Source: an uncultured delta proteobacterium (GTDB lineage: Bacteria; RBG-13-61-14; DRUE01). From it: a stretch of 9,474 nt of DNA. A program made the translations under genes and the position numbers. Location: positions 1 to 9,474 of the forward strand of contig CAIYYW010000144.1 in assembly GCA_903930515.1 (NCBI GenBank), written 5' to 3'. The notes under the pieces are model-generated. The model searched no databases. It saw only the letters and a list, made by a program, of their open reading frames with translations, and had not been told where the DNA came from. Position 1 is the first letter of the stretch. Each line of letters begins with the position of its first letter. Positions 2,538-9,269 of the stretch are shown here, piece by piece.

Positions 2538-3389
2538 TCAGGTCTTCGGGCGCTCTGGATACCTGCCGCTATTCATCAGGTTGCTGAGGTAATTTATGAC
2601 ATAGTTGAAAATCGGGCGGAAGTGGTGCTTGCAGATATACAGGAAATGCACATCCCGGGGAGTGATCACCAGAAATTTATTCTTCTGGATGGCGCGGATG
2701 ATCTGGCCGGCCACTTTTTCCGGAGAAATCGCGTGCCGGGAAAACCTTTTCTTGATCTCCTGCACATCCTCCCGACTCATATCCAGTCCCAGGATTTCAA
2801 CGGTATTTTTCAAAGGTGTTTCCACCGCGCCCGGGCAGACCACGGTCACGCCGATATGGTGCTGCTTAAGGTCAACCCGCAATACCTCGGACAATCTCAC
2901 CAGTCCCGCCTTGGAGGCGCTGTAGGCCGAGTGCCAGGGCAGCCCGATCAGACCGGCCAGCGAGGCGACATTGACCAGGTGTCCCTTTTTAGCCCGGATC
3001 ATTTCCGGGAGGAAACACTCAATGGCGTGGATCGGCCCCCAGAGATCAATATTGATGACCTTTTTCCAGTGCTCATGGGTCATATCCTCAACCAGCGCGA
3101 ACAAGGCGATTCCCGCGATATTCATCAGGATCTCCAGCGGCCCGTAACTTTTATGAATTTCATCCGCAAAGGACTTGATCGCAGCGTAATCGGCCACATC
3201 CAAAACCCGGGTCAAGCAAACCTCCCCGCCACTTTTCCTGACCATCGCCGCGGTCTCTTCCAGGCCCTTCCCGTTGAGGTCGGTCAAAAACAACCGGCAT
3301 CCCAGGTCAGCCATAACCAGGGCGGTTGACCGGCCGATCCCGCTCCCGGCGCCCGTGATGAAAACCTTGCTCCCTTTGGTTATTTCCAT
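2538..3389 (-). CDS. Short-chain dehydrogenase/reductase (classical SDR)
   Basis: Cytoplasmic NAD(P)-dependent oxidoreductase of 283 residues acting on an alcohol/ketone; the substrate is unknown. Rossmann glycine motif TGAGSGIG at 12-19. An acidic residue (D37) at the end of strand 2 favours NAD(H). D64 follows in VLDVAD and NIAG in 90-93. The catalytic set is N113, S143, Y156 and K160 (YSASK). The PG motif is at 186-187 (CPGAVETP). The C-terminal ~50 residues are longer than in minimal FabG-type enzymes and rich in aromatic and basic residues. The chosen ATG (3389) has GGAGG 6 bases upstream; a TTG 33 bases further out is in frame but has no supporting site and lies in the promoter. It is transcribed divergently from the FadR-like regulator and convergently with merR. 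A strong promoter upstream overlaps the regulator's promoter, so co-regulation is likely. Confidence 0.92.
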   Translation of the reverse strand: MEITKGSKVFITGAGSGIGRSTALVMADLGCRLFLTDLNGKGLEETAAMVRKSGGEVCLTRVLDVADYAAIKSFADEIHKSYGPLEILMNIAGIALFALVEDMTHEHWKKVINIDLWGPIHAIECFLPEMIRAKKGHLVNVASLAGLIGLPWHSAYSASKAGLVRLSEVLRVDLKQHHIGVTVVCPGAVETPLKNTVEILGLDMSREDVQEIKKRFSRHAISPEKVAGQIIRAIQKNKFLVITPRDVHFLYICKHHFRPIFNYVINYLSNLMNSGRYPERPKT

Positions 3390-3415: not shown

Positions 3416-3444
3416 TTGACAAAGGTTAAACCATTCATTAGAAT
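3416..3444 (+). promoter_or_regulatory. Sigma-70 promoter for the GntR/FadR-like regulator and downstream genes
   Basis: TTGACA (3416-3421), a 17-base spacer (3422-3438) and TAGAAT (3439-3444, 5 of 6 to consensus). The predicted start is near 3451, giving a leader of about 72 bases to the ATG at 3524. Its -10 box lies 2 bases from the -10 box of the opposing promoter, so two polymerases cannot be bound at once. It may drive the whole downstream gene series, since no clear internal promoter was found. Confidence 0.75.
3423..3433. promoter_or_regulatory. Candidate FadR/GntR-type operator inside the promoter spacer
   Basis: AGGTTAAACCA has the form GGT-N3-ACC and matches the symmetric E. coli FadR core TGGT-N3-ACCA at 7 of 8 defined positions. 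It lies entirely in the spacer of the plus-strand promoter and at about +12 of the minus-strand promoter, so a bound regulator could block both. The adjacent gene encodes a FadR-like GntR protein, which makes autoregulation plausible. The match is seen; binding is inferred. Confidence 0.5.
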
Positions 3445-3458
3445 TGATTATATCAATT
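3442..3458. promoter_or_regulatory. 17-base palindrome over the paired -10 boxes
   Basis: AATTGAT (3442-3448), spacer TAT, ATCAATT (3452-3458): perfect 7-base arms. It covers the 3' half of the plus-strand -10 box and all of the minus-strand -10 box. It could be a second operator, for the same regulator or another one. Part of the symmetry comes from AT-rich promoter sequence, so confidence is limited. Confidence 0.4.
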
Positions 3459-3475
3459 TAAGGAAAAGATGTCAA
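3447..3475 (-). promoter_or_regulatory. Consensus sigma-70 promoter for the SDR gene
   Basis: Read on the minus strand, TTGACA (plus positions 3475-3470) is followed by a 17-base spacer (3469-3453) and TATAAT (3452-3447). Both hexamers match the consensus perfectly, with ideal spacing. The predicted start is near 3440, about 50 bases before the SDR ATG. The downstream DNA includes the FadR-like site at 3423-3433. Confidence 0.8.
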
Positions 3476-3491
3476 GCGCGGAACCCCGCGC
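3476..3491 (+). promoter_or_regulatory. GC-rich stem-loop in the leader of the regulator gene
   Basis: GCGCGG (3476-3481), loop AACC, CCGCGC (3486-3491) form a perfect 6-base stem with a 4-base loop, about 25 bases into the predicted transcript. It sits just upstream of two successive Shine-Dalgarno sites. No U-run follows, so it is not an intrinsic terminator. It could stabilise the 5' end or affect initiation. Confidence 0.35.
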
Positions 3492-3507
3492 GGCGGGAAG
3501 GAGATTG

Positions 3508-3531
3508 ATGATGGAGGCCGACCATGGCTAA
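3508..3531 (+). other. Possible 7-codon leader ORF overlapping the regulator start
   Basis: ATG-ATG-GAG-GCC-GAC-CAT-GGC-TAA (peptide MMEADHG) has its own AAGGAG (3498-3503) 4 bases upstream. It ends at 3531, overlapping the regulator's start codon at 3524 in another frame. If translated, it would couple initiation of the regulator to the mini-ORF. So short a reading frame has no statistical weight alone; the Shine-Dalgarno site is the only support. Confidence 0.2.
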
Positions 3532-4312
3532 CCTGCAAAAACACCAGCGGGTGGTGAACACCCTGGTCAACCAGATTTTTCTGGGCAAGCTGAAACCGGA
3601 GGCCAAGCTCCCGACCGAGAAGCAGCTTTCGGAGCGGATGAAGGTTGACCGGACCTCTCTCCGGCTAGGGCTGAAGCAGCTTGAGTCCATGAGGGTGCTC
3701 ACGATCCGGCAGGGGGACGGGATCTATGTCAAGGATTACATCAAGAATGCGGGCCTGGATTTCCTGGGACTGCTGATGCAGCAGGAGGACGCGGGCAAAT
3801 ACCTGATTGAGGATGTGTATATCATGGACGAGATCTGGGAGTTCTGGATCATGTTTTTCCCGCTCGTGCTCCGGATGGCGATCGAGCGCGGCTCTACCCG
3901 CGACATCAAGTCCCTGGCCGACCTGATCACATTGCAGGAACAGCGCCTCGCAGACCGCAAGCGGGTGGTGGAGATCGGGATCCTCATCCAGGACCGGGTC
4001 GCGGAGATCGTGAACAACACCATCGTGCTCCTGCTTTTCAACTCCTGCCGGCCGCTCCGGAAACGGATCCTGGAAATCCAGGTCCACTCGATGGACAGGA
4101 ACGGTTTGAAAGGTTTGATCGAGACCGAGAAATATATATTGAATGCGGCGATCAACGGCACGGACGCCGAGATCGCCCAGGGCCTGGAACAGGTGCGGCA
4201 AAACTACGAGTCCTACCGCAGGAAAATGCGGGAAACCATGAGCGGGCCGCTCCGGCAGGGCAGTGTTTCAAAAAACCGGCTGAGCCAGAGGCGGAAAAAA
4301 GATGCGGCTTGA
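3524..4312 (+). CDS. GntR-family regulator, FadR-like
   Basis: DNA-binding regulator of 262 residues. Residues 5-72 form the GntR winged helix: VVNTLVNQIFLGKLKPEAKLP, TEKQLSERMKVDRTSLRLGL (HTH) and LTIRQGDGIYV (wing). The linker NAGLDFLGLL and the all-helical remainder (80-240) resemble the acyl-CoA-binding C-terminal domain of E. coli FadR. The conserved Asp/His metal set of ordinary FCD domains is not evident (one histidine, H188). Family knowledge thus suggests a fatty-acyl-CoA or similar CoA-thioester effector; this is inference. The C-terminal 25 residues are basic and probably disordered. The ATG has GGAGG (3513-3517) 6 bases upstream. It diverges from the SDR gene, with overlapping promoters and FadR-like symmetry, as expected for an autoregulated local regulator. 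Its stop region is followed within 22 bases by the next gene. Confidence 0.87.
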   Translation: MANLQKHQRVVNTLVNQIFLGKLKPEAKLPTEKQLSERMKVDRTSLRLGLKQLESMRVLTIRQGDGIYVKDYIKNAGLDFLGLLMQQEDAGKYLIEDVYIMDEIWEFWIMFFPLVLRMAIERGSTRDIKSLADLITLQEQRLADRKRVVEIGILIQDRVAEIVNNTIVLLLFNSCRPLRKRILEIQVHSMDRNGLKGLIETEKYILNAAINGTDAEIAQGLEQVRQNYESYRRKMRETMSGPLRQGSVSKNRLSQRRKKDAA

Positions 4313-4334
4313 TCGCGCATCCGGGAGGGCGGCT

Positions 4335-4991
4335 ATGAGGGTTTGGAAAAATCTGGGATTGATGGTTCTGGTCATGCTGGTTTTCGCCCGGGCCTGGGCC
4401 GCGGACCAGAGCGGCAAAGCCCTGACCGGCACCGTGCTCGACCGCCTCACCCCCGAACAGCGGAAAAAGCTTCTGGCCGGCGAGGAAGTTTACCAGCCGC
4501 CTCTGAAGGTCGAGTCCCAAGCAGGCGGTCAACCAAATTTAACTGCGGCGGCCATGATCATTATCGCCGCCCCGGTCGAGCAGTGTTTCAAAATGTTCTG
4601 CGATTTTGACCGGCAATACCTCTATTTCCCGGCGATTACCAACAGCAAGGCGCTCAACCGCTCTGAAAACCGCGTGGTGATTTACAAAGAACTCGACTAC
4701 CGGGTGGCGGTCTTCAGATACACCCATATCCTGACCATAGACCCCGCGCGGCGCCGGGTGGATTTTGTCACCGACCCGACCGGGGTCAATGACATAAAGT
4801 TTTCCCAGGGATTTTTTCAGTTTGAAAAAATAGATGATACCAGGGCCCTGTTCACCTATGGGCTGGTCAAACTCGACCCGGGAATAAAAATCCCCGAGTT
4901 CATCCAGGAATATATGACCTCGCGCGACCTGCCCAAAATGGCGATCAATCTCAAAAAATATATAGAATCCGGAGGGAAATGGAAAAAGTAA
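4335..4991 (+). CDS. Exported START/SRPBCC-fold (polyketide cyclase-like) protein
   Basis: Periplasmic or secreted protein of 218 residues, 196 after processing. The signal peptide has MRVWKN, a hydrophobic core LGLMVLVMLVF and the cleavage site AWA|AD after residue 22. A linker is followed by a helix-grip-type domain (about 65-212). It begins TAAAMIIIAAPVEQCFKMFCDFDRQYLYFPAI, continues with alternating strands including GFFQFEKIDDTRALFTYGL, and ends in the long C-terminal helix SRDLPKMAINLKKYIES. Such folds bind hydrophobic ligands such as lipids, sterols or polyketides in a central cavity; the ligand here is unknown. The chosen ATG has GGGAGGG 5 bases upstream. An in-frame ATG at 4302 overlaps the end of the regulator but would put 11 charged residues before the signal peptide. 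The esterase next to it is also exported, suggesting a shared periplasmic task. Confidence 0.78.
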   Translation: MRVWKNLGLMVLVMLVFARAWAADQSGKALTGTVLDRLTPEQRKKLLAGEEVYQPPLKVESQAGGQPNLTAAAMIIIAAPVEQCFKMFCDFDRQYLYFPAITNSKALNRSENRVVIYKELDYRVAVFRYTHILTIDPARRRVDFVTDPTGVNDIKFSQGFFQFEKIDDTRALFTYGLVKLDPGIKIPEFIQEYMTSRDLPKMAINLKKYIESGGKWKK

Positions 4992-5048
4992 ACGCCCGGA
5001 TTTTAAGTCCGCGGAACTTGTTCAGCGATCTTAAGGAGGAGGGAGAGA

Positions 5049-6758
5049 ATGGTTAAGGGGAAAACATTTTTTATCTTGGCGAGCCTGTTAATAATTTCCA
5101 TCGCGCAAACCGCCCGGGCCCAGGATTCATGCTCCGAGCCGGCGCCAACCGGTTCCGGCCTGGTCCGCGGAACGAGCGAAAGCGAAACCGCGACCTGCGT
5201 CTGGCGCGGGATCCCTTATGCCGCGGCGCCGGTGGGAGAGTTACGGTGGAAGGCTCCGCAGCCCGCCCCGCAATGGTCCGGGGTGAGAGATACGGTTGTC
5301 TTCGGGAACCGCTGCATGCAGAAAGGCCTTTTGCCCGGAAGCCAGGGGCCTCGGGCGATCTCGGAGGACTGTTTATTTCTCAATATCTGGCGGCCCCGGG
5401 AAAAGAGCGGCAAATTACCCGTGATGGTGTGGGTCCATGGCGGCGGTTATATTACCGGCGGAGGCGATGAGCAAGTGTATTGGGGAGACCGGCTGGCGGA
5501 GAAGGGCGGCCTGGTGGTGGTAAGCATAAACTATCGTTTGAATATTTTCGGGTTTATGGCCGGCCCGGCCCTGCGGGACGAAGACCCTCATCATTCCACC
5601 GGCGGATACGGGACCCTGGACCAGGTTTTTGCCCTGAGATGGGTGCGGGACAACATCGCCAACTTCGGGGGAGACCCCGGGAAGGTGACCATTTTCGGAG
5701 AGTCCGCGGGCGGCTGGTCCATATGCACGCTCCTGGCCACGCCCCTGGCAAAAGGGCTGTTCAACCGCGTTATTATGGAAAGCGGCGCCTGCGAGGCGAG
5801 CCGCGATCCGGATGCGGCATATGAGATCGCCAAAAAATCCTTCTCGGCCCTGAATTGTGATTTCAACGACCTCGCGTGTATGCGCAAAATGCCCGCGACA
5901 ACGGTCCTCGCCAAAGGCTCGGGGGCGTTGCTCGGGGGCTTTGATTATGTGCCGGTTCAGGACGGCTATGTTTTGAAGGCAACGCCTTTGGAAATGATCA
6001 AATCCGGCGACTTCAACCGGGCTTCGGTGATGGCCGGGACCAATTTGGACGAGTTCGCCGGAGCGACCAAGCTGGTCCCGAAATATTATTACACCCTGCC
6101 GCAGGACTATGAGCGGAAACTGGGCAAGGCTTTCGAAACCACCCCGGAGCAAGCGGCAAAACTGGTCCTGCTTTACCCGCTTGCTGAATTTAACAACCGG
6201 CCGGTGCTGGCTTACGGCCGGATGTTTGCCGCGGACGCGGCCTTGCTTTGCCCCACCTACCGGGCCGTCACCAGTCTGGCGGGGCAGAACGGGACCGCCT
6301 ACCTCTACCGTTTTGATTATGACGATCTGACATACAGCAAGGCCATCGGCGTGTTCCACTGCGCGGAGATCCCGTTCGTTTTCAACAACCTGGACCGCGG
6401 TTCCTTGAAGATGCTCTACCCAAATAAAAACCTGGACCAGGCGCGCGCGCTCTCCCAAGTCATTCAGGGGTACTGGATCAACTTCGCGAAAACCGGAGAC
6501 CCCAACGGACCCGGTCTGCCGGCCTGGGCGGTTTTCCAAGCCCAAAACCAGACCGTACAGGTCCTGGATACCCAAGTCAGGAGCGAGCCCGTCTCCTTTT
6601 CCGGGCGATGCGAATTCTGGGAGACCTACCCAACGGCGTACCTGGAACTAATGAATGGGCTGGTGGATTCCCTTCCGGGTTCCGGACTTGCCCGGCCTTC
6701 AGGGTTGCGGCAGGAGCGGAAGCCTGGAAAAGAAACCTGCAAGAGCAAGGGGGATTGA
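5049..6758 (+). CDS. Exported type-B carboxylesterase
   Basis: Alpha/beta-hydrolase of the carboxylesterase/cholinesterase family (569 residues, typical length) that hydrolyses carboxylic esters. The Sec signal peptide MVKGKTFFILASLLIISIAQ ends at ARA|QD after residue 24. Family marks in order are the oxyanion-hole loop HGGGY (130-134), EDCLFLN (106-112, signature 2) and GESAG with nucleophile S219. E335 lies in GTNLDEF and H437 in GVFHCAEIPFVF, completing the catalytic triad. Cysteines 89/108 and 270/277 sit where cholinesterase-type disulfides occur, fitting a periplasmic or extracellular location. About 30 residues at the C-terminus (540-569) are Pro/Gly/Lys-rich and look disordered. The start has an AAGGAGGAGGGAGAGA site. 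The substrate cannot be assigned; para-nitrobenzyl-esterase-like activity is the usual annotation. Confidence 0.93.
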   Translation: MVKGKTFFILASLLIISIAQTARAQDSCSEPAPTGSGLVRGTSESETATCVWRGIPYAAAPVGELRWKAPQPAPQWSGVRDTVVFGNRCMQKGLLPGSQGPRAISEDCLFLNIWRPREKSGKLPVMVWVHGGGYITGGGDEQVYWGDRLAEKGGLVVVSINYRLNIFGFMAGPALRDEDPHHSTGGYGTLDQVFALRWVRDNIANFGGDPGKVTIFGESAGGWSICTLLATPLAKGLFNRVIMESGACEASRDPDAAYEIAKKSFSALNCDFNDLACMRKMPATTVLAKGSGALLGGFDYVPVQDGYVLKATPLEMIKSGDFNRASVMAGTNLDEFAGATKLVPKYYYTLPQDYERKLGKAFETTPEQAAKLVLLYPLAEFNNRPVLAYGRMFAADAALLCPTYRAVTSLAGQNGTAYLYRFDYDDLTYSKAIGVFHCAEIPFVFNNLDRGSLKMLYPNKNLDQARALSQVIQGYWINFAKTGDPNGPGLPAWAVFQAQNQTVQVLDTQVRSEPVSFSGRCEFWETYPTAYLELMNGLVDSLPGSGLARPSGLRQERKPGKETCKSKGD

Positions 6759-6759
6759 A

Positions 6760-7503
6760 ATGGCGGAAGAAACCAAAGCGAGCGTGGAAAAGGAAACCAA
6801 AATCAAGCCGCCGGATTCCGGCGCGGAATTCAATGAGGTGGAAGACCTGATTTACCGCCGGAGGAGCGCGCGTTTCTACAAGAAGCAACAGGTGCCGGAG
6901 TACCTGGTCCGGCGTCTGCTTGAAACCGCGCGGTTTGCGCCGTCATCCGGCAACGCCCAGCCCTGGAAATTCATCGTGGTCCAGGACCGGAAGATGATTG
7001 AGGAGATGACCCGCGATGTGGTCGCCTTCTGCAAACTGGCCTGCCGGTTCATTGACTACCTGGACGGATGGAACCCGCTGAAAGAATGGACCGCCAAGCT
7101 GATGCAGCGGCTGATGAACAATTTGCTCCACCCGATTCCGTTCGCGGCCCTCAAGCTGATTGCGGAGGAAAAACTGGGATTATGGCACGGGGCGCCGACC
7201 GTAATCATCATGCTCACGGACAAACGCTGCCCCGGAGACCCCGCGGTGGATGTGGGCATTGCCGGGGAGAACCTGGTGCTCGCGGCGCACAGCTACGGAC
7301 TGGGCACCTGCTGGGTGAGTTTCTGCACGCCCCTGAAGATGATGCCCAAATGGAGGAAACGGCTCGGGATCAGGTATCCCTACAAATTGGTGACCTCAAT
7401 CGCGTTGGGTTACCCGAGGGGCGTCCCGGACGGTTATGTGACCCGGGAGACCAGCGCAATTGACTGGTTCGCGGAAGACGGAACCTTTAAAGTGGTATAT
7501 TGA
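6760..7503 (+). CDS. Nitroreductase-family FMN oxidoreductase
   Basis: Flavoprotein of 247 residues, probably a cytoplasmic homodimer. Features: LIYRRRSARFYKKQQVP (30-46) with the FMN-contacting basic/serine residues, APSSGNAQPWKFIVV (60-74), AGENLVLAAHSYGLGTCW (168-185) and a C-terminal SIALGYPRG. Residues 95-145 form an inserted helical region (FIDYLDGWNPLKEW to LKLIAEEKLGLWHG), larger than in small NfsB-type enzymes and partly hydrophobic. The ATG follows the esterase stop after one base and has AAGGGGGA upstream, so the two are translationally linked. A longer in-frame start at 6655 inside the esterase gene is rejected. The dicluster ferredoxin begins 11 bases downstream, suggesting electrons come from a ferredoxin rather than only NAD(P)H. 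The real substrate, perhaps a quinone or unsaturated intermediate rather than a nitro compound, is unknown. Confidence 0.9.
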   Translation: MAEETKASVEKETKIKPPDSGAEFNEVEDLIYRRRSARFYKKQQVPEYLVRRLLETARFAPSSGNAQPWKFIVVQDRKMIEEMTRDVVAFCKLACRFIDYLDGWNPLKEWTAKLMQRLMNNLLHPIPFAALKLIAEEKLGLWHGAPTVIIMLTDKRCPGDPAVDVGIAGENLVLAAHSYGLGTCWVSFCTPLKMMPKWRKRLGIRYPYKLVTSIALGYPRGVPDGYVTRETSAIDWFAEDGTFKVVY

Positions 7504-7514
7504 AAGGAGATCAA

Positions 7515-7838
7515 ATGCCCGAACATTTGAGAATTAGAGACCGGCTGAGGATTGAGAGCTTTAAAAAGCTCGGCCAAGATGTCACCCTGGGCGCGGTGGA
7601 GATAGACCCGGCCAAATGCACCGGATGCGGCTTGTGCGTAAAAGCATGCGCCGCCGGGACGATAGAGTTGGTGGGCAAGAAAGCCCGGATGAGGACGGTT
7701 TTTCCCATTTGCCATTCCTGCGCGGACTGCGTGGCCATCTGCGCCCAGAATGCGATCCAGATGAAACAGTTCCTGGAGTTGAAAAAATATTTCCGCTACC
7801 TGGACCGCGGAAAGCCCGAGCCGCCCAGGAGGTTTTAA
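7515..7838 (+). CDS. Dicluster [4Fe-4S] ferredoxin
   Basis: Small electron carrier of 107 residues with two complete CxxCxxCxxxC motifs: C35-C38-C41-C45 (CTGCGLCVKAC) and C66-C69-C72-C76 (CHSCADCVAIC). It should hold two [4Fe-4S] clusters. The proline that usually follows the fourth cysteine is replaced by Ala in both motifs. An N-terminal segment of ~30 residues (charged helix, RIRDRLRIESFKKLG) and a basic C-terminal helix (FLELKKYFRYLDRGKPEPPRRF) flank the core and may mediate docking. The ATG has AAAGGAGA 4 bases upstream; a TTG at 7500 lies before this site and is rejected. It is placed between the nitroreductase and the thiolase, and the likely partner is the nitroreductase. Confidence 0.92.
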   Translation: MPEHLRIRDRLRIESFKKLGQDVTLGAVEIDPAKCTGCGLCVKACAAGTIELVGKKARMRTVFPICHSCADCVAICAQNAIQMKQFLELKKYFRYLDRGKPEPPRRF

Positions 7839-7839
7839 A

Positions 7840-7872
7840 GTGAAACATTCTTACCAAAGAGCGGGGAGATAA
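7840..7872 (+). other. Possible 10-codon ORF between ferredoxin and thiolase genes
   Basis: GTG at 7840 lies 7 bases after a perfect AGGAGG (7827-7832), the best Shine-Dalgarno sequence in this interval, although those bases also encode the ferredoxin's Arg-Arg. The frame (peptide MKHSYQRAGR) ends with TAA at 7870-7872, two bases before the thiolase ATG. Translation could deliver ribosomes to the thiolase start. It is too short to judge from coding statistics. Confidence 0.22.
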
Positions 7873-7874
7873 AA

Positions 7875-9269
7875 ATGAGGGATGTTTATGTAATAGGGGC
7901 GCACACGATCAAGTTCGGAAAGCATCTGGAAAAGGGCATCAAGGAGCTTACGGCTATGACCGTGGAAGGGGTGCTCAAGGACGCGGGGATAGACCGGAAG
8001 CAGATCCAGTCGGCCTGGTTCTCCAACTCGGGGTGGGGAATGAGGAATTTCCAGCATTGCATCCGGGGGGAGGTGGCGCTCCGTCCGCTGGGGATTGACG
8101 CCATCCCGATTACCAATGTTGAGAACGCATGCGCCGGCGGGTCAACCGCTTTTCACGGCGCCTGGAAGGATGTGTCCCTGGGCATCTCGGAGATCTCGCT
8201 CGCGGTCGGCGCGGAGAAGGTTTACGCCCCGAACAAATATCTGATGTTCGCGGGATTTATGTCGGGAATGGATGTGGAGCTGATCGGCGAGATGATGAAG
8301 CAGGCCGCTCAAATGCCGCGGGTCAAGATTGAGGTTCCGAGGGAGCAGATGGAAGCCGCGAAGAAAACCAAAAAGGCCGGAAAGCCCAAGAGCCTGCGCG
8401 ACCGGGTCCAGGATTACTGGTATATGTTCGCGACCTATGTGGCGCTCGGCGAGAGCATCGGCTATGACACCTTGAAGCTGCTGCGCGAAACCAGCAAAGG
8501 CGGGGGAGCGGGCGGGAGCGACCGGTCCGCGTTTATGGATGTCTATGCCTATGCCGCGCGAATGCATATGAAAAAATACGGCAGCACCCAGCGCCAGATC
8601 GCGGTGATCGCGTCCAAGAGCCACTGGCATTCTACCATGAACCCGAACGCGCAATACAATTTTGACTTGACCATTGACGAGGTGCTCAAGGACCGGGTGG
8701 TGTCCTTCCCGCTGACCCGCAGTATGTGCGCGCCCATCGGGGACGGCTCCGCCTCGGTCATCCTGGCTTCCGAAGAAATGGTCAAGCGCCTGGGAGGATC
8801 TTCGCGCGCGATCAAGGTGAGGGCTTCGGTGCAGGTTTCCGGCAGGACCCGCGGCGAGGACGATCCGGATATCGCGGAGCGGGCGTCCCAAATTGCATAT
8901 CAGAGATCGGGTCTGGGGCCCAAGGATATTGATTTTGCCGAGGTCCACGATGCCACCGCATTCGGAGAGTTACATCAGACCGAGGCGCTGGGATTTTTTC
9001 CGGCCGGAGAAGGCGGCGTTTATGCCGAGAAAGGCGAGACCAGGGTTGGCGGAAAGAAACCGGTCAATCCCTCGGGCGGTCTGCTCTCGCGCGGTCATCC
9101 GATCGGGGCTTCGGGCCTGGCCCAGATCCACGAGCTGGTGACCCAGCTCCGGGGAGAGGCCGGCAAACGGCAGGTGCAGGGAGCGAGAATCGCGATGGCC
9201 GAGAACGGCGGCGGGGTGATCGGTCTTGAGGAAGCCGCGATGTGCATACATATTTTGGAAAAAGTCTAA
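7875..9269 (+). CDS. Thiolase-family protein (SCP2/archaeal-like acyl-CoA acetyltransferase)
   Basis: CoA-thioester condensing or cleaving enzyme of 464 residues. N-terminal MRDVYVIGAHTIKFGKH is typical of the SCP2/archaeal branch. The nucleophilic cysteine is C86 in NACAGGS. H358 is in VHDATAFGE and H408 in SRGHPIGASG. The C-terminal loop reads AENGGGVIG (442-450), so the second catalytic cysteine of classical thiolases (CxG) is absent. The HDCF cysteine of SCP2 thiolases is also replaced (HDAT). Residues about 140-195 form an inserted, lysine-rich segment that makes the protein longer than the usual ~390. Relatives often work with a separate DUF35 OB-fold/zinc partner; none is visible here. 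The ATG is preceded by GGGGAG at 6-7 bases. Possible roles are beta-ketoacyl-CoA thiolysis or condensation; a non-thiolytic C-C lyase is also possible. Confidence 0.88.
   Translation: MRDVYVIGAHTIKFGKHLEKGIKELTAMTVEGVLKDAGIDRKQIQSAWFSNSGWGMRNFQHCIRGEVALRPLGIDAIPITNVENACAGGSTAFHGAWKDVSLGISEISLAVGAEKVYAPNKYLMFAGFMSGMDVELIGEMMKQAAQMPRVKIEVPREQMEAAKKTKKAGKPKSLRDRVQDYWYMFATYVALGESIGYDTLKLLRETSKGGGAGGSDRSAFMDVYAYAARMHMKKYGSTQRQIAVIASKSHWHSTMNPNAQYNFDLTIDEVLKDRVVSFPLTRSMCAPIGDGSASVILASEEMVKRLGGSSRAIKVRASVQVSGRTRGEDDPDIAERASQIAYQRSGLGPKDIDFAEVHDATAFGELHQTEALGFFPAGEGGVYAEKGETRVGGKKPVNPSGGLLSRGHPIGASGLAQIHELVTQLRGEAGKRQVQGARIAMAENGGGVIGLEEAAMCIHILEKV

Follow-up and report, generated by a model that had tools for sequence, protein, structure and literature searches.

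By its sequence, the stretch between an SDR-family oxidoreductase gene and a GntR-type regulator operon is a real, conserved, and well-formed bidirectional sigma-70 promoter of a kind already described. It lies in a DNA fragment of 9,474 nucleotides (here the window), and its two arms, one on each strand, occupy a common 60 bases (3416-3475; Table 1). Both directions are probably shut off by the GntR/FadR-like regulator encoded beside the promoters, which would thereby combine autorepression with co-repression. The original prediction of two near-perfect overlapping sigma-70 promoters with -10 boxes 2 bases apart (the gap is 3445-3446) was right in sequence and coordinates. Its description of the pair as facing outward holds for the transcripts, which diverge, but not for the promoters, which stand head-to-head with the -35 boxes outermost and the -10 boxes innermost.

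Table 1. Positions of genes, promoter elements, and candidate operators in the window
Feature	Position	Strand	Details
SDR-family oxidoreductase gene	2538-3389	-	ATG at 3389; Shine-Dalgarno GGAGG ~5 bases upstream
Rightward -35, TTGACA	3416-3421	+	6/6 to consensus; TTGACA at the equivalent place in L037/L047
Candidate operator 1, AAGGTTAAACCAT	3422-3434 (center 3428)		Putative; in the + strand spacer, just downstream of the - strand start
Rightward -10, TAGAAT	3439-3444	+	5/6 to consensus; 17-base spacer; predicted start ~3451; TATGAT in L037/L047
Candidate operator 2, AATTGAT-TAT-ATCAATT	3442-3458 (center 3450)		Putative; perfect inverted repeat over both -10 boxes
Leftward extended -10, TGATATAAT	3455-3447	-	Hexamer TATAAT at 3452-3447, 6/6 to consensus; 17-base spacer; predicted start ~3440
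Leftward -35, TTGACA	3475-3470	-	6/6 to consensus
GntR-family (FadR-like) regulator gene	3524-4312	+	Pfam GntR PF00392, 2.4e-14; FCD 21.7 bits versus cut-off of 24.3
Probable remainder of rightward operon	4302-9269	+	ORFs and Pfam matches

With starts placed 7 bases after each -10 box, divergent transcription is predicted to begin ~11 bp apart. The start on each strand would lie within the -10 hexamer of the other strand (3451 within 3447-3452 of the - strand, 3440 within 3439-3444 of the + strand), in agreement with the earlier claim that it would lie in or next to that box. The mutual exclusion of polymerases that had also been claimed follows from this geometry and has been described for the class (PMC12825309). 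The leftward -10 box is extended by a TG at 3455-3454, one base ahead of the hexamer. Among 6 promoter-like sites in the window (9.5 kb), the pair took the top two places, with 12/12 and 11/12 matches to consensus; the remaining sites had 9/12. The flanking CTTGACA and TGTCAAG, previously read as the ends of a large dyad, are no more than the opposed -35 elements themselves and do not constitute independent evidence; for the same reason, the dyad was rejected as a separate regulator site in the window. The adjoining C/G, which does not vary among 23 upstream regions, goes slightly beyond the needs of a -35 element.

In 20,000 dinucleotide-preserving shuffles of the intergenic sequence, a fraction of 0.0001 contained two facing promoters with at least 5/6 matches in all four hexamers within 85 bases, by a criterion chosen after the site had been seen. 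In pattern searches of the 3.65-Mb genome, exact TTGACA-17-TATAAT was found in only 6 places (reversed control, 0), and ORFs begin 18 to 68 bases downstream of the other five; the sigma-70 consensus is thus meaningful in this organism. On two other contigs of this genome (L001 and L003), a pair of nearly identical secreted-type ORFs is preceded by one and the same perfect promoter, TTGACATTATAAATTGGTTTCGGTATAAT, which suggests a recent duplication. The double-TTGACA head-to-head architecture is rare, yet it recurs in unrelated bacteria: 11 of the 386 genomes surveyed had the exact pattern with 0 to 14 bases between the -10 boxes, against 0 for the reversed control. Several of these sites are at regulator/enzyme divergons, including a thiolase/TetR divergon (L080) and a MarR/SDR divergon (L081), where TTGATATATATCAA lies between the -10 boxes. 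Another neighbors a TetR gene (L079), and one site, with a span of 66, is common to three congeners (L083 to L085); in two of these three genomes the promoter lies between an RnfC-type-looking gene and a sugar-nucleotide epimerase-type-looking gene. Gene names at the surveyed sites are readings of ORF translations, except for the thiolase and SDR matches.

Conservation of the hexamers in related genomes had been named beforehand as a test of the prediction, and they are conserved in the nearest relative. This relative of the regulator (L037; 65% identity over the alignment) came from a collection scan that also gave four loci in Syntrophaceae-type genomes; 155 genomes of that order contained 27 homologous loci, and the class-level search was a repeat of the order-level search. 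Among three genomes of the window's phylum, the regulator was found in its own genome only, and a search of the phylum of L037 returned only the L037 genome. The L037/L047 upstream region has TTGACA-17-TATGAT opposed to TTGACA-16-TTAAAT, with a span of 59 instead of 60 bases and the same 2-base gap separating the -10 boxes; the leftward -10 counterpart, with its 16-base spacer, is weaker in L047 than in the window. The divergent ORF of L037 differs from the SDR gene of the window and, from its translation, encodes a TonB-receptor-like protein. TGTCAAG, the leftward -35 element plus its flanking base, was present in 23 of the 27 upstream regions of the family, including those of the window and L047 (0.27 expected), which are related and are therefore not 23 independent events, and the opposite CTTGACA was present in 1. 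Across the family, the leftward -35 is conserved more than any other element.

The relatives are arranged in distinct layouts. Six loci (L044, L045, L049, L050, L053, and L062) have head-to-head promoters spanning 80 to 82 bases, with TTGGT-N2/3-ACCAA between the -10 boxes in five and a degenerate form, ATTGTACCAAT, in L044. In eight loci (L051, L054, L064, L066, L069, L070, L071, and L072), TGTCAAG lies upstream of a rightward TTGACA, such that the promoters are back-to-back. In six others (L055, L068, L073, L075, L076, and L077), TTGGTTNAACCAA immediately follows the -10 box of a leftward promoter, and a comparable rightward promoter was not found. A fourth layout, tighter than the first, is that of the window and L037. 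One kind of regulator thus occurs with head-to-head promoters, tight or looser, and with back-to-back ones, a small evolutionary series in which the divergent -35 motif is the most constant element. The regulators of the back-to-back loci have DLSSLR in place of DRTSLR in the recognition helix, and the palindrome there also differs (approximately TCAATT-N5-AATTGA, between the -35 boxes), possibly a series of regulator/operator coevolution.

The N-terminal GntR winged helix (PF00392) was matched in all six aligned members of the regulator family. The window protein is FCD-like below the Pfam cut-off, and the other five aligned members had no FCD match; FadR and PdhR were among the best relatives of the regulator in solved structures and NCBIfam. 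Close spacing suggests that the genes after the regulator probably belong to one operon with it. In order, they encode an unassigned secreted-type protein, a carboxylesterase, a nitroreductase-family protein, a ferredoxin, and a thiolase, a content that is probably catabolic. Thiolase orthologues (50 to 61% identity) adjoin the regulator in approximately 10 loci, in several of them on the divergent side. As the side of the regulator on which the thiolase lies varies between species, the two directions plausibly belong to one pathway.

Operators were sought by comparison with the relatives, and those in the window are candidates only. In twelve relatives, a palindromic TTGGT-N2/3-ACCAA starts 34 to 36 bases away from TGTCAAG; it overlies the -10 boxes or lies between them, a position from which a single dimer would obstruct both promoters. 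The TTGGTTNAACCAA operator is clear in two Syntrophales subgroups; the window has only the imperfect AGGT-TAA-ACCA and TTGAT-TAT-ATCAA, neither of which lies at the 34- to 36-base distance or is clearly conserved in L037. Candidate operator 1 has 3 mismatches to TTGGTTNAACCAA, has the same core as L077 (GGTTAAACC), and fits the GT-N3-AC of FadR-type sites (PMC4494728). Candidate operator 2 contains TTGATTATATCAA, which also has 3 mismatches to TTGGTTNAACCAA; it is weak on its own because perfect 7-base arms arise in 6.5% of shuffles. Two sites with 3 mismatches to TTGGTTNAACCAA occurred per region in 0.4% of shuffles, and one occurred in 7%. The centers of the candidates are 22 bp apart, a spacing compatible with the paired sites of FadR-type divergons (PMC4494728). 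Elsewhere in the genome, GGTTAAACCA was found in 4 other places; TTGATNNNATCAA was found in 22 places in the genome, with the identical 13-mer at one other (L090, intergenic and not evidently related). A genome-wide regulon for the two candidates was rejected, as no other copy lay at an evidently related gene.

Bidirectional promoters are defined by divergent starts 7 to 25 bp apart (PMC10268837) and account for 19% of the RNAs detected in Escherichia coli, with common distances of 18, 10, and 23 bp (PMC12825309), a large class overlooked in the earlier premise that divergent genes usually have separated promoters. The promoters described by Warman, Grainger, and colleagues (PMC12825309, PMC10268837) resemble the window pair in having opposed sigma-70 promoters with the -10 boxes inside and the -35 boxes outside, in often lying between divergent genes of linked function, and in admitting one polymerase at a time, since opposing polymerases exclude each other sterically (PMC12825309). 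The window differs in having two full-consensus -35 elements and -10 boxes that adjoin rather than being shared, and its starts are predicted. By contrast, the tested E. coli bidirectional promoters have weak basal activity. By sequence comparison, the arrangement is ordinary in kind and of modest novelty, and what sets it apart is its two strong arms.

Particular members of the class offer closer parallels. At E. coli PacrA/acrR, a bidirectional promoter likewise lies between a regulator gene and its target operon, which in the window is putative, and the autorepressor AcrR represses both RNAs (PMC12825309); AcrR, however, is a TetR-family protein, and transcription toward acrA is activated by SoxS and MarA, whereas the window regulator is GntR/FadR-like. 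No activator site was evident at the window promoters. At E. coli bioA/bioB, face-to-face promoters over one operator serve one pathway and are repressed together by BirA. The window shares with that system face-to-face promoters over an operator, here a candidate, and directions that plausibly serve one pathway; it differs in that the regulator gene lies outside the divergon there and the regulator families are unrelated. bioA/bioB is among the listed bidirectional promoters (PMC12825309). Divergons of FadR-subfamily GntR regulators have an intergenic palindromic operator, TKGT-N3-ACMA, as a central single or double site (PMC4494728). They resemble the window in having the regulator gene divergent from a structural gene, and the two window candidates are near the intergenic middle, 22 bp apart; in the window, however, both candidate sites are imperfect and the FCD match is below the Pfam cut-off.

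The favored mechanism starts from two near-consensus promoters reading left into the SDR gene and right into the regulator gene and an operon that is probably catabolic. Binding of the regulator is most likely within the 60-base region, at 3422-3434 and/or 3442-3458, and the bound regulator would shut off both directions. A ligand, probably a pathway intermediate, would release it, after which one polymerase at a time would occupy the site and the promoters that share it may compete. Such competition would be expected once the repressor leaves because both -35 elements are already consensus, and no activator would be needed at promoters so near consensus. Co-repression is favored by the tight layout (59-base span, 2-base gap), which is kept in L037/L047 despite a different divergent gene, and by the recurrence of the exact geometry at the thiolase/TetR and MarR/SDR divergons. 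Against it, eight relatives are back-to-back, so promoter overlap is not required by the family.

The original prediction had instead proposed a switch, in which the regulator would tip the balance to the SDR gene or the regulator operon by blocking or activating one polymerase orientation. Polymerases do exclude each other, activation of one direction of a bidirectional promoter can repress the other (PMC12825309), and candidate operator 1, in the + strand spacer, could affect the two promoters unequally. The switch nevertheless appears unlikely: neither promoter should need an activator, the genes of both sides plausibly serve one pathway, the relatives' operator is placed to block both promoters, and where FadR-type divergons have a single site, it usually controls both operons (PMC4494728). 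With thiolase on the divergent side in relatives, the switch is unsupported, and co-repression is the better reading, the switch being possible but less likely. Also unlikely is a compact constitutive promoter that sets a ratio of transcripts while the neighboring GntR regulator acts elsewhere or another factor binds. It would accommodate the imperfect window operators and the same geometry between genes without an evident regulator at L082, L084, L085, and L089, but the regulator gene adjoins the region in all homologues studied, most of them with a good FadR-type operator or palindrome there, and two candidate sites in one region are rare in shuffles. Least probable, and very doubtful, is that only the perfect leftward promoter is real and the regulator is transcribed from elsewhere. 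The strong conservation of the leftward -35 element and the six homologues that lack a comparable rightward promoter are consistent with such a fortuitous rightward match; the match itself, however, is 11/12 with a 17-base spacer, is kept in L047 as TTGACA-17-TATGAT, and has a weight-matrix score of 14.7, compared to 6.1 for the best alternative rightward candidate in the intergenic region.

Beyond co-repression, it is conceivable, if unlikely, that polymerase exclusion is itself regulatory after the repressor leaves, setting the ratio or noise of the regulator operon versus the SDR gene without an activator, given how close both arms come to consensus. The examples of the class studied to date are so weak that opposing polymerases barely interfere at rest; the five tested in E. 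coli were too weak to compete at rest, and a better -35 element made most of them compete. Exclusion as a regulator would contrast with these weak examples, in which competition appears only on activation, and a conserved pair found in nature with both arms near consensus offers a clean test of whether steric competition serves as regulation.

Minor features were observed to the right of the promoter pair. A seven-codon ORF (ATG ATG GAG GCC GAC CAT GGC TAA; 3508-3531, +), preceded at 3498-3503 by an AAGGAG of its own, overlaps the regulator start codon in another frame; none was evident in L037, and the ORF could encode a leader peptide or be a chance ORF. Just outside the leftward -35 element, GCGCGG-AACC-CCGCGC (3476-3491) forms a perfect 6-base-pair GC hairpin, without a T run, that falls in the leader of the rightward transcript.
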